Shown here: positions 19,593 through 24,011 of the stretch, one piece after another
How the letters are laid out: each line of letters opens with the position of its first letter
Position numbering within the stretch: position 1 is the stretch's first letter
Assembly: GCA_020692205.1 (NCBI GenBank)
Contig: JAIMKV010000036.1
Span: forward strand, 249-46,773
Direction: 5' to 3'
Origin: Myxosarcina sp. GA_180221_E-2-1-MAG-40_15
Lineage (GTDB): Bacteria > Cyanobacteriota > Cyanobacteriia > Cyanobacteriales > Xenococcaceae
DNA length: 46,525 nucleotides
Notes under the pieces: generated by a model
The model's input: the letters and a program-made list of their open reading frames with translations, nothing else
Told to the model about the DNA's origin: nothing
Database searches by the model: none
Program-made: the position numbers and the translations under genes

Positions 19593-21122
19593 TTAACCAT
19601 CTAGGTTAATTTGAACCCCCATTTGTTTAAGCAATTCTCGTTCGCGAGCGATCGCCCTTACCGACTCTTCAAAATCTTTACCTTGTTCTGAGTAGACATC
19701 GCTAAAGGTAGTCATTCCAGCACCTAATGATGCAATAGTCGCCTGCACTTCCTTATGCGGATCGACCCAGGCCCAGCCGCGAAACTGCCACTTACAGGCT
19801 TGGTAGCGCTTAGGCCTTAACTCGTAATCGGGGAAATTTAACACCCCAGCCATAACCGCCAGATCCAGCCAGCCATCAGATTCGGGATTGCCAAAGATTA
19901 CCTCTTTTAAAAAATGTGTGGCAAACCAAACCTGCAAAACCTTATAGCGATCGCGTGCGGTAATTAAACTCAAGCGAGAAGAAGAGTAATTAGTTTTAGA
20001 ATAATCATTGCTCATCGTCTCGTAACTTACCCCTATCCCCGCCCCACTAGCCCGTAGCTGCTGCTCGATAAAGGTAACCAGATTAGCGTTAGGACGCTTG
20101 GGGTCAAAAGCTTCCATGCTTTCCCCTGGAGCAAGATAGCGCATCACCCCAGGCTCAAACTTCTCATCAGCGGGTAGTTCACTGCTGTTTTCCCCACCAG
20201 GTTCACCTAAAAGATCGCCGTAGGGCGTAGTAATCATCGCCATCACACAGCTAGCCAGCTTGGCTGCCAATAGCTCATTTTCCTCATAGTCGCCCATATT
20301 TTTGAGCCTGAGTAGAGTAGAAAACAGCAAAGGCAATCCCCTTGCCTGGTTAGGGCGATCGCTAAAATGCAGGTGAATAATTTCCGACGCAGGTATTCTT
20401 TGCAGCTCTCTGCTAGCTACCCCCGAGCGACCTACCCACGAATCCCCAGGATGCTCGCGGTAAAACCAATAGGCAACAGGACGCTGCCACTGGTCAACTT
20501 CCACTCCCATGACAATTTGATTTGTGCCATGGATGCAGTTATGCTCCTCCGCTAGCTGATCGGCCTCAATGATTTCTAGGGCAAAAGGCACAGGCGAACC
20601 GCTAAAGCTTTGTTTTACCTTGCGCACAAACACCTCCCCAGACTCCAAACAAGAGCGCAGAGCTAGCTGCTGAATTCCCGCAAAATTAAGTTTACCTGCC
20701 GTGTGACACCAAAGCTTTTCCTCCGCCCAATCTTTAAAAGCTGATTCAATTAAATTATTAACCCGATCGTCATTCCTGTCCTTTGCCTTGAGCTGCTTAA
20801 CCTGAGACTGGAAAGTAATCCCCAAGTAAACCACATTATCAACCAGCTTACCAATTACACCCCTGGCATAATCATTATTGCGAATCACGTCACGCGAGCG
20901 CCCGCGCAGAGTAGTCAGATCCGCCCAAATATCGGCATTAGCAGAATTTTGGGATACGAACCAATTGCCATAGTTGCGTCCTCGTTTTGCTCCGTCATAT
21001 CTTCTTGAGGACACGGGGCTTGAATTTAATTCAAGCCCGTGAGATGTCCGTTTAAGAACATGAGCTGGAGAATGCCTTGGTGGGGTGTTCCAAAGTTGAC
21101 GAATAAAGCTCGCTAGACCCAT
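19593..21122 (-). CDS. Portal protein, lambda gpB family
   Basis: The product (509 residues from ATG 21,122; 515 from GTG 21,140) follows the lambda-family portal pattern (TIGR01539). Seen in order: SRDVIRNNDYARGVIGKLVD, then AFKDWAEEKLWCHTAGKLNF, LALRSCLESGEVFVRKV, EIIEADQLAEEHN, RIPASEIIHLHFSDRPNQ, RGLPLLFSTLLRLKNMGDYE and VSYETMSNDYSKTNYSSSRL. The dodecameric portal forms the DNA channel and motor dock at one capsid vertex. I prefer the ATG at 21,122 (MGLASFIRQL) as start, but no clear ribosome site decides. Residues about 24-39 are encoded by a palindromic element also found in the terminase gene. Confidence 0.92.
   Translation of the reverse strand: MGLASFIRQLWNTPPRHSPAHVLKRTSHGLELNSSPVSSRRYDGAKRGRNYGNWFVSQNSANADIWADLTTLRGRSRDVIRNNDYARGVIGKLVDNVVYLGITFQSQVKQLKAKDRNDDRVNNLIESAFKDWAEEKLWCHTAGKLNFAGIQQLALRSCLESGEVFVRKVKQSFSGSPVPFALEIIEADQLAEEHNCIHGTNQIVMGVEVDQWQRPVAYWFYREHPGDSWVGRSGVASRELQRIPASEIIHLHFSDRPNQARGLPLLFSTLLRLKNMGDYEENELLAAKLASCVMAMITTPYGDLLGEPGGENSSELPADEKFEPGVMRYLAPGESMEAFDPKRPNANLVTFIEQQLRASGAGIGVSYETMSNDYSKTNYSSSRLSLITARDRYKVLQVWFATHFLKEVIFGNPESDGWLDLAVMAGVLNFPDYELRPKRYQACKWQFRGWAWVDPHKEVQATIASLGAGMTTFSDVYSEQGKDFEESVRAIARERELLKQMGVQINLDG
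21007..21053. repeat. Palindromic element, copy A (inside portal gene)
   Basis: Left arm GAGGACACGGGG (21,007-21,018) and right arm CCCGTGAGATGTCCGTTT (21,036-21,053) are identical to the arms of copy B at 22,109-22,155. The middle forms GCTTGAA / TTCAAGC with a 5-base loop. The stem has the same single extra G on the left as copy B. It is translated in frame near the portal N-terminus. Confidence 0.88.
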
Positions 21123-21158
21123 ATTAATACCATTGATCACTATTGCTAGTTTGCCCAG

Positions 21159-21458
21159 ATGACCACCAGAGAAATGTTAGAAGATCGGATTGTGGAAATG
21201 GTTTTTTGCCCTTGGCAACAATTACCAGAAAAGTTAACCAAACTAGGTTTAAAAGTAAACGTTACAGAAAAAGGAGAATCACTAGTAATCAGTAATGGTC
21301 ATCAAGTTCATGGTTTAACTGATATCGATCCATCAACAAAAGCAGTAATTATTGGTGCTGTCCTCTCAGGTTCTTTTAGAATTGGTTTCTATTTTCCTGG
21401 GTTGATGCCCAAAATTCAGAAACAATGGCAAGAAAATTCTAGGAAGAAGAAAAACTAA
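21159..21458 (+). CDS. Hypothetical protein encoded antisense to the phage operon (moron-like)
   Basis: This is a 99-residue plus-strand ORF in the gap between the portal and gpW-like genes, where all neighbours are on the minus strand. Its start, ATG 21,159, is divergent from the portal start, and its last 20 bases overlap the end of the gpW-like gene. The product begins MTTREMLEDRIVEMVFCPW and contains LVISNGHQVHGLTDIDPSTK and VIIGAVLSGSFRIGFYFPG, a credible mixed alpha/beta composition, then ends in a basic tail. I see no known family, signal or membrane anchor and no strong ribosome site. It lies between the two copies of the palindromic element, so it may have been brought in. Confidence 0.5.
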   Translation: MTTREMLEDRIVEMVFCPWQQLPEKLTKLGLKVNVTEKGESLVISNGHQVHGLTDIDPSTKAVIIGAVLSGSFRIGFYFPGLMPKIQKQWQENSRKKKN

Positions 21459-21978
21459 TCCCGATATTCCGCCCGCCGATTCCAACCTGCCTGCGCGCAT
21501 AGCGAATCCGTTTTCTCAAATATTCCTGCCGAGAAGTGAGTTCTGCTAAATCCTGATAGCGCATCATGCGATCGCCAATGCGATATTCAGCTACCGCCCC
21601 CGACACCAGACGCGCGATCGCAGCAGTAATTACCTCTAATTCCTTCTCGTCATCACTGCGAGGATCTAGTGTGGTCAAACTCTCATAGCTGCCCTTAACT
21701 TCAATCTTGGCAATTCCTAAAGTTTTACGACCACTGCCTGAGAGCATGACAAACTGTGCCTGATAAACCCCTGTGGCTAATTGGCTACAACGATCCTCGG
21801 ATAAGCTGAATTCCCACCCGTCAACCGAACCGACGGCAGTCAAGTCAACCGCTCCCCTCTGACCTCGGATAAAGCAAGACAGAGTATCAGTCAAAAAATT
21901 ATAATCAGGAAAATGCTCAAACCAGGACAAGCGATCGCCCTGTGTAAAACTTGTGGGAATATTAAAAATCAAAGGCAT
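21439..21978 (-). CDS. Head-tail connector, gpW-like C-terminal domain
   Basis: The frame is open from 22,116, but the first 46 residues are translated repeat-rich spacer; ATG 21,978 (MPLIFNIPTSFTQGDRLSWF) is the likely start, giving 179 residues. Residues about 1-110 form a beta-rich domain (VDGWEFSLSEDRCSQLATGV, KTLGIAKIEVKG). After TLDPRSDDEKELEVITAAIA comes a short helical hairpin with EYRIGDRMMRYQDLAELTSR, the gpW-like layout found in many siphophages (two helices around a small beta hairpin). gpW-type proteins stop DNA leaking and form the platform for FII. The gene lies between terminase and portal. Confidence 0.72.
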   Translation of the reverse strand: MPLIFNIPTSFTQGDRLSWFEHFPDYNFLTDTLSCFIRGQRGAVDLTAVGSVDGWEFSLSEDRCSQLATGVYQAQFVMLSGSGRKTLGIAKIEVKGSYESLTTLDPRSDDEKELEVITAAIARLVSGAVAEYRIGDRMMRYQDLAELTSRQEYLRKRIRYARRQVGIGGRNIGISFSSS

Positions 21979-22064
21979 AATTGGCAAAAATAAGAAGTAA
22001 GAAATAAGAAGTAACATATTTCTTACCGAATGGCAAGCGAGCTTAATCTCAAGAAAGTCAAAGA

Positions 22065-24011
22065 TTAATTTCTTCTCCTGCGAACATTTCCCTTGCGACT
22101 CCGAACAAGAGGACACGGGGTCTTAGCTTTGCTGCGACCCGTGAGATGTCCGTTTGGTTTGAAATTGTTCGGAGTTTTATTTATTTGCGAAGTTGCTTTA
22201 TCTGAGGTTGCCTCAGACATAAGTTGTTCCTCAAGCTCGGATTCGATCTTACCCCAGTTCATTCTGGTAACACCCGCCAAATGCGCAGCAGCTAAGGCAT
22301 AGACAAAAGTATCAAGTGGTTCATTTCTAACCCCTGCCAACTTCTCCCACACCATATAGGGCTGGCCGTTACGATGTTTAGTAACCTGTACCTCGCCACA
22401 GAAACCCTCGTACCAATCAGTATCCAAATTGTTAGGGAAGTTAATGTATTTCGCGCCTGGAGTTTCAATCTTGCTCCTTGAATACAAAGTCTCTTTAGCT
22501 AAATCCACCCCAACCTTATACAGGTTAATCCCCCGCTTGATTTTGTCTCCTTTATAGTTAATTTCTTGAGGAGAAGGACGCGAGACTAAAGGCTTGTCCC
22601 CCGACTGCCCTTTAATTGCAAACCAATGCAGATATCTATATTTACGAACATTGTGATAGACTTCTTGTGTCAGATATCCAGAATCGACACAGGTAGCCCT
22701 AATTCTAAGTTCAGCCCCATCGACACGCTGATATACTTTACCAGTCACATGAGCTAGCTGTTCCCAAGCCTGTGTAGAGAGCGGATCGCCTAAAATTTTG
22801 TGATAGTCAATTACATAAGCCTGTTCCCCCTCGCCCCAAGCCACAATTACCACTTCTAGTCGGTCGGCCTGGACATCCACCCCAGCAGTTAGAATTAGTC
22901 CGCCATTAGGAACGAAGCCGCGTTGGTAACCCGACCCAGAGCCGCGATCGCGGTATAGCTGCCAGTCAAGTTTTTCCCCTGCCACCCGTTCAAAAGGCAG
23001 ACCCAAAGTAGCGTTCCAAAAAACCTGCAGCTTTTGTGGGTCATCTCTAGATGTTTCATAATCAAGGCAAAGATCGACCCACCCCTTCCAAGGCGAGTAA
23101 AAGCGGTTGATATGGAAGCCAATATGCTTTGGATCGACCGCTACCGCCGTAGCAACCCATTGCCCTTGGCGCAGCATCTGGGATTTATATTTCTCTTCAA
23201 TCGGACTATTGCAGGACTCGCAAATATAATACACCCCTGATAGGGGATTTGCGTTTTTTGTATCCTTATCAGCATATTGAAACCGCGACCAAATCAAATG
23301 CTGTTTGTGTCCACAGTGGGGACAAGGAACAAAATAGCGCCGCTGGTCTGATACCTCAAACTCCTCTTCAATCCGAGAATTTTCCTTGATTGAAGGGGTA
23401 GAAACCAAAAAAACTAACCAGTTCCAGAAAGTTTCCGTCCGTTGAATAGCCAGCTTAACTGGATCGCCTTCCTTGCCCGCAGAGCGGGGATATTTGTCTA
23501 TCTCATCCCCAAAATATGCCCGAATGCTCATCGAAGCCAAGCTTGAGGGAGAATTAGCCCCAGCCAGTCTCAAAAATCCCCCTGCAAACATCTTCATCAA
23601 AATAGTCGAATTAGCATCTCGCGACCTTTGCGCTATCTTGGCAGTTACTGGCTTAACATGAGTAATCGCACTCGATAGTTTCTCCTTGCTAAAAATCTCC
23701 GCCATATCTGTAGTGGGCTGGGTCATCAGCATCGAGCAGGGATCGAGATCGATTAGATAGCAGATAATAATCAGCAAAATAATCGTTTTACCAATCTGGG
23801 CGCTGCACATTAGCGTAATCTTTTGTACCCCAGCTTCACAGGCAGCATCAAGTATTCCTGCCTGGTAAGGAGCGCGATCGCTGTGCCATCTTCCAGGTTC
23901 AGCACTAGTTTCAGGCAGCTCAAAATTCTCAACTGCCCATTGACTTGGCAACTGTCTTTTTGGTGGTGTAAATTCAGTAAAAGCTTGAGAGATAAGAGCT
24001 TGAGCGTCCAT
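22065..24011 (-). CDS. Terminase large subunit, lambda gpA family
   Basis: The 648-residue protein carries the ATPase and nuclease of the packaging motor (PF05876 type). The Walker A variant is CSAQIGKT (about 69-76), preceded by the adenine-side segment ELPETSAEPGRWHSDRAPYQ. Walker B is RAYFGDEIDKYP (about 164-175). A zinc-finger-like insert has CPHCGH (C230, C233) and CESC (C264, C267). The nuclease domain has LTAGVDVQADRLEVVI with Asp379, and LAGVRNEPLDTFVYALAAAH near the end. The last 30 residues are basic, and part of them is encoded by the palindromic element shared with the portal gene. It starts at ATG 24,011, 64 bases after the small-subunit stop. Lambda gpA relatives usually cut at cos sites. 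Confidence 0.94.
   Translation of the reverse strand: MDAQALISQAFTEFTPPKRQLPSQWAVENFELPETSAEPGRWHSDRAPYQAGILDAACEAGVQKITLMCSAQIGKTIILLIIICYLIDLDPCSMLMTQPTTDMAEIFSKEKLSSAITHVKPVTAKIAQRSRDANSTILMKMFAGGFLRLAGANSPSSLASMSIRAYFGDEIDKYPRSAGKEGDPVKLAIQRTETFWNWLVFLVSTPSIKENSRIEEEFEVSDQRRYFVPCPHCGHKQHLIWSRFQYADKDTKNANPLSGVYYICESCNSPIEEKYKSQMLRQGQWVATAVAVDPKHIGFHINRFYSPWKGWVDLCLDYETSRDDPQKLQVFWNATLGLPFERVAGEKLDWQLYRDRGSGSGYQRGFVPNGGLILTAGVDVQADRLEVVIVAWGEGEQAYVIDYHKILGDPLSTQAWEQLAHVTGKVYQRVDGAELRIRATCVDSGYLTQEVYHNVRKYRYLHWFAIKGQSGDKPLVSRPSPQEINYKGDKIKRGINLYKVGVDLAKETLYSRSKIETPGAKYINFPNNLDTDWYEGFCGEVQVTKHRNGQPYMVWEKLAGVRNEPLDTFVYALAAAHLAGVTRMNWGKIESELEEQLMSEATSDKATSQINKTPNNFKPNGHLTGRSKAKTPCPLVRSRKGNVRRRRN
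22100..22173. repeat. Palindromic element, copy B (inside terminase gene), with outer inverted repeat
   Basis: The left arm GAGGACACGGGG (22,109-22,120) and right arm CCCGTGAGATGTCCGTTT (22,138-22,155) match copy A base for base over 30 positions. The 17-base centre differs from A but keeps a GTC/GAC extension of the stem. Outside it, TCCGAACAA (22,100-22,108) and TTGTTCGGA (22,165-22,173) are a perfect inverted pair. It is translated in a different frame from copy A. Confidence 0.88.

Follow-up and report, generated by a model that had tools for sequence, protein, structure and literature searches.

The stretch of DNA analysed here, called the window below, covers 46,525 nucleotides (nt) of contig JAIMKV010000036.1 from the cyanobacterium Myxosarcina sp. 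GA_180221_E-2-1-MAG-40_15, and two packaging genes of a prophage in it each contain a copy of a 45-nt palindromic element. The phage portal gene occupies positions 19,593-21,140 on the reverse strand (PF05136, Phage_portal_2, E = 1.4e-105), and the gene for the large subunit of the terminase occupies positions 22,065-24,011 on the same strand (PF05876 and PF20454). Copy 1 of the element is located at 21,007-21,051 on the forward strand, antisense in the portal gene at residues 30-45, and copy 2 at 22,109-22,153, also on the forward strand, antisense in the tail of the terminase gene at residues 620-635. The scores of the two copies against the sequence model of the family are 71.1 and 64.9 bits, respectively. 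On the coding strand, the first base of the element falls on codon position 3 in the portal gene and on codon position 2 in the terminase gene, so that identical DNA is read as different peptides. The portal copy folds, as DNA and as RNA, strongly better than its shuffled versions (z about -4.3 to -5.4), and the terminase copy does so to a lesser extent (z -1.7 to -3.3).

The sequence CCCGTGAGATGTCCGTTT has two occurrences in the window at up to three mismatches, both of them exact, and the mean for shuffled sequence is 0.03. A chance repeat is excluded, as two occurrences were seen in none of 100 shuffles and more copies are present in this genome and in others. An earlier note on this DNA had reported a palindromic repeat that is read in two different frames in the portal and terminase genes, with identical arms, with centres that differ and are nevertheless paired, and with a bulged G; all of these features were found in the two copies. 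The bulged G is an additional base without a partner in the 5' arm of the stem and corresponds to a one-base asymmetry that is retained across the family. The note had also taken the copies for direct repeats bracketing a gpW-like gene. The copies do run in the same direction, but their upper stems differ and their flanks are unrelated, and nothing was found to indicate that they bracket a unit. They appear to be two insertions into the portal and terminase genes of the prophage, with no function of their own attributed to them there. Between the copies, an open frame of 99 amino acids (21,159-21,458, forward strand) lies opposite the packaging genes.

The length of the element, for which the note had given 30 or 47 nt, is set to 45 nt by a recJ gene that lacks the insert. 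The recJ gene of the genome to which the window belongs has 45 nt more than that of its nearest relative, G397, and the adjoining sequence is continuous, with no duplication of the target. The element is also absent from 11 other relatives in the recJ alignment, where the linker is of variable length. In recD2, the genome G396 carries the element at a site that is empty in both the window's genome and G394. The difference amounts to 48 nt, i.e. 45 nt and one codon, in an acidic stretch, and the latter two genomes share a copy elsewhere in the same gene. The peptide is missing from the portals of G388 and G392, which at this place are shorter by 16 and 13 residues, respectively. Of 40 genomes, 7 have terminase relatives (the window's own genome counted); their tails likewise contain no such peptide, but vary too much for the boundary to be placed exactly, that of G388 diverging earlier. 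Four related prophage loci gave no model match to the element. Dating of the portal insert by means of 37 relatives on viral contigs failed because the N-termini of the 18 loci aligned are too divergent, and when 244 genomes from the phylum were searched for portal genes, the relatives obtained were all distant.

Most copies elsewhere have the same length: 77 of the 80 that were fetched are 45 nt long (the remaining three are 42, 46 and 69 nt), as are 15 of the 20 fetched later (four of 69 and one of 70 nt) and 17 of those in the first 20-copy alignment (three of 43 or 44 nt). A 24-nt repeat, TATGCGAAGCTGTATCCTTTAGGA or close forms of it, is nested in the 45-nt element in L160, L289-L291 and L294, in opposite directions in L160 and L294. 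This repeat has 21 copies at up to three mismatches in the window's genome and 63 in G388, and a paired change in it converts GCGAAGC to CCGAAGG.

The element belongs to a dispersed family. Three copies with exact arms are present in the window's genome, where 12 places lie within three mismatches of the right arm, 11 of them having the left arm as well, compared with one place for the reversed control pattern. The model gives 17 matches there at E<=0.01, 13 of which are strong copies with E<=1e-8. A pattern scan of named genome contigs yielded 14 stretches, all in records with cyanobacterial titles; the carriers are Moorena, Pleurocapsa, Okeania, Crocosphaera, Aphanothece, QS_4_48_99 and SU3. 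The model, R1, is based on 20 elements taken from the window's genome and from these named cyanobacterial contigs. In a sample of the phylum, 5 of 386 genomes (the window's own included) matched at E<=1e-6, with up to 15 candidates scored per genome, which makes this sample less sensitive and misses likely. In the same genus and family, with up to 150 candidates scored per genome, 21 of 24 other genomes matched, with 194 model matches at E<=1e-4. The 80 places listed from these searches that were fetched were all recovered by the model. Among 119 copies, there are four groups in which unrelated sites in different genomes share the same 42-nt core, which points to related forms common to several genomes. 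The copies in L036, L037, L038, L020 and L289-L294 are part of a longer shared repeat of ~105 nt, which has spread with the element inside.

In viral contigs, three strict patterns found 0, 0 and 1 places, and the single place, L316, is doubtful as a member because it is located on a GC-rich contig, has no clear upper stem and scores 32.5 bits. Two loose patterns found at least 120 stretches; among the 80 places listed for the first of them, there were two weak model matches. The idea of a phage-borne element was rejected on these grounds.

The note had proposed that selection or mobility works at the level of the nucleic acid rather than of the peptide. The 13 strong copies in one genome, the use of all three antisense frames described below and the portal relatives without the peptide bear out the reading as mobility of the nucleic acid. 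The note had named a lack of further copies, together with conserved peptide segments, as telling against its proposal; further copies exist in the genome, and portals of the same genus lack the peptide.

The lower stem of the hairpin and its flanks are nearly invariant, while the upper stem is hypervariable but complementary. When 80 copies were aligned by fitting them to the model, pairing was seen in 97.9% of the 1210 stem cells and 253 two-sided changes were present; neither value was reached in any of 500 shuffles. An alignment of 20 copies contains 58 two-sided stem changes (0 of 500 shuffles). The covariation for which the note had asked is present in both alignments. The asymmetry of the hairpin is constant, with an extra base on one side of the stem and a longer bulge on the other; pairing of position 9 with position 38 leaves 3 misfits, compared with 13 for the pairing 9-34 that was drawn first.

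The covarying hairpin could suggest that the element moves via an RNA intermediate, as is reportedly proposed for small dispersed repeats in Nostoc, and its nesting with a 24-nt repeat of the small-dispersed-repeat kind also favors this explanation. However, G.T or G.U pairs occupy only 15 of the 1210 stem cells, a share that seems low for a helix kept as RNA. Furthermore, when copies at the same site, recognised by their common flanks, are compared, the element differs in 11 site groups, and in 4 of these the three loop bases are inverted. The inversion is the only change in L169/L170, L184-L185/L186 and L276-L277/L278, and is accompanied by one more change in L017/L060. Inverted loops were also noticed by eye in L130/L150 and L043/L167. 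Inversions of three loop bases between copies at one site need folding of DNA. No clear compensated stem change was found in the other differing same-site groups, the L228 group being complex. The scarcity of G.T and G.U pairs, the loop inversions and the uncompensated stem changes at shared sites together suggest a DNA rather than an RNA structure; an RNA intermediate is improbable, and the processed RNA hairpin that the note had suggested as an origin fits poorly. A known structured RNA family was rejected for lack of Rfam matches, none being found at E<=1 in the window segment 20,900-22,400 or at the gathering threshold in four further loci. It appears that folding takes place in the DNA itself, that moving lineages renew the complementarity, and that the hosts do not maintain the hairpin.

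The sites of insertion were examined in a set of 94, obtained from 106 (80 fetched and 26 from earlier loci) by removing exact duplicates of the 12-nt flanks. Open frames of at least 130 codons contain 47 of the 94 sites, 36 in antisense and 11 in sense. When the same elements were re-inserted nearby at random, 46.7% of 1814 positions were in long frames (p = 0.54), so that genes are neither preferred nor clearly avoided, as would be expected if a 15-codon sequence with few stops inserts at random. Stop codons occur in the three antisense frames of 3, 11 and 52 of 98 elements, and in the three sense frames of 4, 50 and 87. The excess of antisense copies is slightly above the expectation based on stops (p = 0.013; 0.034 against the re-insertions). 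Within genes, all three antisense frames and both directions are represented among the copies, and the in-frame copies are nearly always multiples of three in length: 45, but also 42 and 69 nt.

Among the 80 fetched loci, 36 frames qualify as hosts. Since L206 repeats L198, the Pfam scan covered 35 of them, and 24 exceed its cut-off. These include RecD2 (twice), GTP cyclohydrolase I (twice), CobN/Mg-chelatase, two histidine kinases, a relaxase, two integrases and a DNA methylase. In RecJ, RecD2 and the chelatase of the window's genome, the parts of the protein on either side of the insert can be aligned with solved structures, which places the insert in a linker. The copy in CobN/Mg-chelatase (L043 and L167) is common to the window's genome and G391, and is an older insertion kept in frame. 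In L225 (361-2100, reverse strand), a copy lies within an open frame that has intein splicing and LAGLIDADG domains, which makes it a mobile element within a mobile element.

That functional gene families are hit, with 24 of 35 frames past the Pfam cut-off, might indicate that the hairpin or its peptide serves the host gene, e.g. as an RNA switch or as a segment for binding, and that selection retains it wherever it is inserted. This is very unlikely: several frames and both directions are used, sites inside and outside long frames are equal in number, stem changes at shared sites are uncompensated, Rfam gives no match, and recJ, portal and recD2 relatives do without the insert. Bypassing elements exist in some yeast mitochondria, and hairpins inside genes, one of which (L026) has a length of 44 nt and lies in a long open frame, could by analogy be skipped by ribosomes or removed from the RNA and so remain untranslated. 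Skipping requires neither a length that is a multiple of three, which the in-frame copies nearly always have, nor a linker position, which was found in all three genes compared with structures, and we give this explanation hardly any credence.

The target is loosely defined. The base at position +4 is G in 68 of the 94 sites (p = 4e-31, although the sites are not fully independent, since near-identical related sites remain, and such p-values are too small). A or T is found at -5 in 80 sites and at -4 in 84, and A at -2 in 53, while 69 sites have a pyrimidine at -9. The base at +4 is a different one in those relatives whose recJ or recD2 gene has no insert, so that the G may have preceded or followed insertion. 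The left and right flanks of the 94 sites are more complementary to each other than re-paired flanks (mean 9.68 compared with 8.82; 0 of 200 shuffles), and a score of 18 is reached by 4 of the 94 sites compared with 0.2%. A few copies thus reside in the loops of other inverted repeats. The terminase copy is one of them, its surrounding repeat having a left arm ACTCCGAACAA at 22,098-22,108 and a right arm TTGTTCGGAGTT at 22,165-22,176 (strand not assigned), and two more are located past a TnpB-type gene in G400. A direct repeat in the flanks of the 94 sites is not above shuffles, 64 of 200 being as high.

The enzyme that handles such a hairpin could be an HUH (Y1) transposase, either TnpA of the IS200/IS605 type or a RAYT of the kind associated with repetitive extragenic palindromes, moving a derivative that consists of the palindrome only. 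HUH chemistry is compatible with a folded DNA that has asymmetric bases and leaves no target duplication. Y1 genes are present in all 29 genomes tested, TnpB-type genes are found near several copies, and in G400 an inverted repeat immediately beyond such a gene contains the element in two cases. On the other hand, the near relatives G386, G388 and G403, which have no element match, hold 8, 10 and 10 Y1 genes, so that these are as common there as in carriers, and the window's genome has 13 strong copies, yet one weak Y1 match. This match is presumably RAYT-like, judged by its motif. Of 39 genomes, 7 have relatives of the RAYT-like gene, whose distribution does not match that of the element, and the 3.1-kilobase RAYT-like locus contains no element. 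A RAYT or Y1 partner is not supported, as the presence of such genes does not track the element, and neither is the IS200/IS605 origin that the note had considered or an origin from RAYT. An HUH enzyme would be a special case of the mobile DNA hairpin, and is a possible but doubtful one.

Two observations concern these genes. In L130 and L150 (both G400), two copies of the TnpB-type gene have the element in the same inverted repeat directly after the gene, with the three loop bases inverted between them; such neighbors may reflect a taste of the element for inverted repeats. The RAYT-like gene (L030, 1219-1758, reverse strand) contains a repetitive in-frame stretch, NASILLANS...NASIMLADS, which is possibly another inserted palindrome.

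By combining these results, the element can be described with reasonable confidence as a non-autonomous mobile DNA hairpin with a nearly fixed length of 45 base pairs. An enzyme acting in trans would recognise the folded, probably single-stranded DNA by its asymmetric features, and the same enzyme would paste the hairpin into new sites. Complementarity would be renewed in the lineages that move, and the inserted copies would drift and their loops flip. Insertions into genes would often add about 15 residues, because 45 nt equal 15 codons and stops are rare in several of the frames, and these residues would be tolerated in linkers and tails. Several points weigh against this description. No mobilising enzyme was found among the Y1, RAYT-like and fetched-locus candidates. 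No identical core was seen at unrelated sites within one genome among the 119 copies, so that recent hopping inside a genome is not demonstrated. Only one empty site, that of recJ, is exactly 45 nt, the others differing by 48 nt (recD2) and by 16 and 13 residues (portal); copies of 42-46 or 69-70 nt exist; and the target sites are related to one another to the extent stated above.

The element can be compared with several known systems. Rickettsia palindromic elements are described as palindromic, mobile and in frame in many unrelated genes, about 150 base pairs long and with a conserved peptide (PMC10969869). The likeness to them that the note had pointed out holds for the in-frame palindromic insertions in many unrelated protein genes; in contrast to that description, the present element has 45 nt, gives different peptides depending on the frame and is cyanobacterial. 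Repetitive extragenic palindromic (REP) elements with GTAG or CGTC ends are small palindromes that also occur in cyanobacteria, some of them in frame inside open reading frames of DNA repair and other genes (PMC3733652). The 45-nt element resembles REPs so described in being a small palindromic repeat in frame inside genes. Unlike them, it has nearly invariant ends GAGG and TCCGT, with G or A as the first base, and no GTAG or CGTC tag, and the RAYT association was not encountered, the RAYT-like gene being out of step and its locus free of the element.

Miniature inverted-repeat transposable elements (MITEs) and palindromic elements derived from IS200/IS605 are non-autonomous and mobile, as the present element appears to be, and some of its copies are in or beside IS605-type elements. 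It is much smaller than these and forms a single hairpin, and at the only empty site of exactly 45 nt the target is not duplicated. Among the fetched loci, neither a parent element nor a recurrent transposase with element-like ends was found. The small dispersed repeats of Nostoc and its relatives, treated by Elhai and colleagues in 2008, are reportedly 21-27 nt long. The element shares with them a tiny size, dispersal, a covarying hairpin, nesting with other repeats and a cyanobacterial host, and differs in having 45 nt and a pairing with signs of DNA-level action. In the way it works, the element resembles Rickettsia palindromic elements, REPs in open reading frames and small dispersed repeats, yet it constitutes a family of its own; it is placed in no named family because its length and ends differ and a RAYT link is lacking. 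The literature searched, which did not include the text of the key Nostoc repeat study, contained no report of a 45-nt element of this kind.

Rickettsia offers the best-known cases of palindromes inserted in frame, and a well-populated cyanobacterial family can now be set beside them. More tentatively, the element may rank among the smallest DNA substrates used in transposition or recombination, as a hairpin whose shape is recognised and by which cyanobacterial and prophage proteins gain insertions of 15 residues in several frames. Insert-free relatives, a target motif and signs of DNA folding make the family a tractable case for finding the enzyme behind tiny mobile hairpins and for measuring how often mobile DNA lengthens proteins. 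If the more tentative explanation is true, the length of 15 codons and the stop-poor frames let the hairpin settle in genes as freely as between them.

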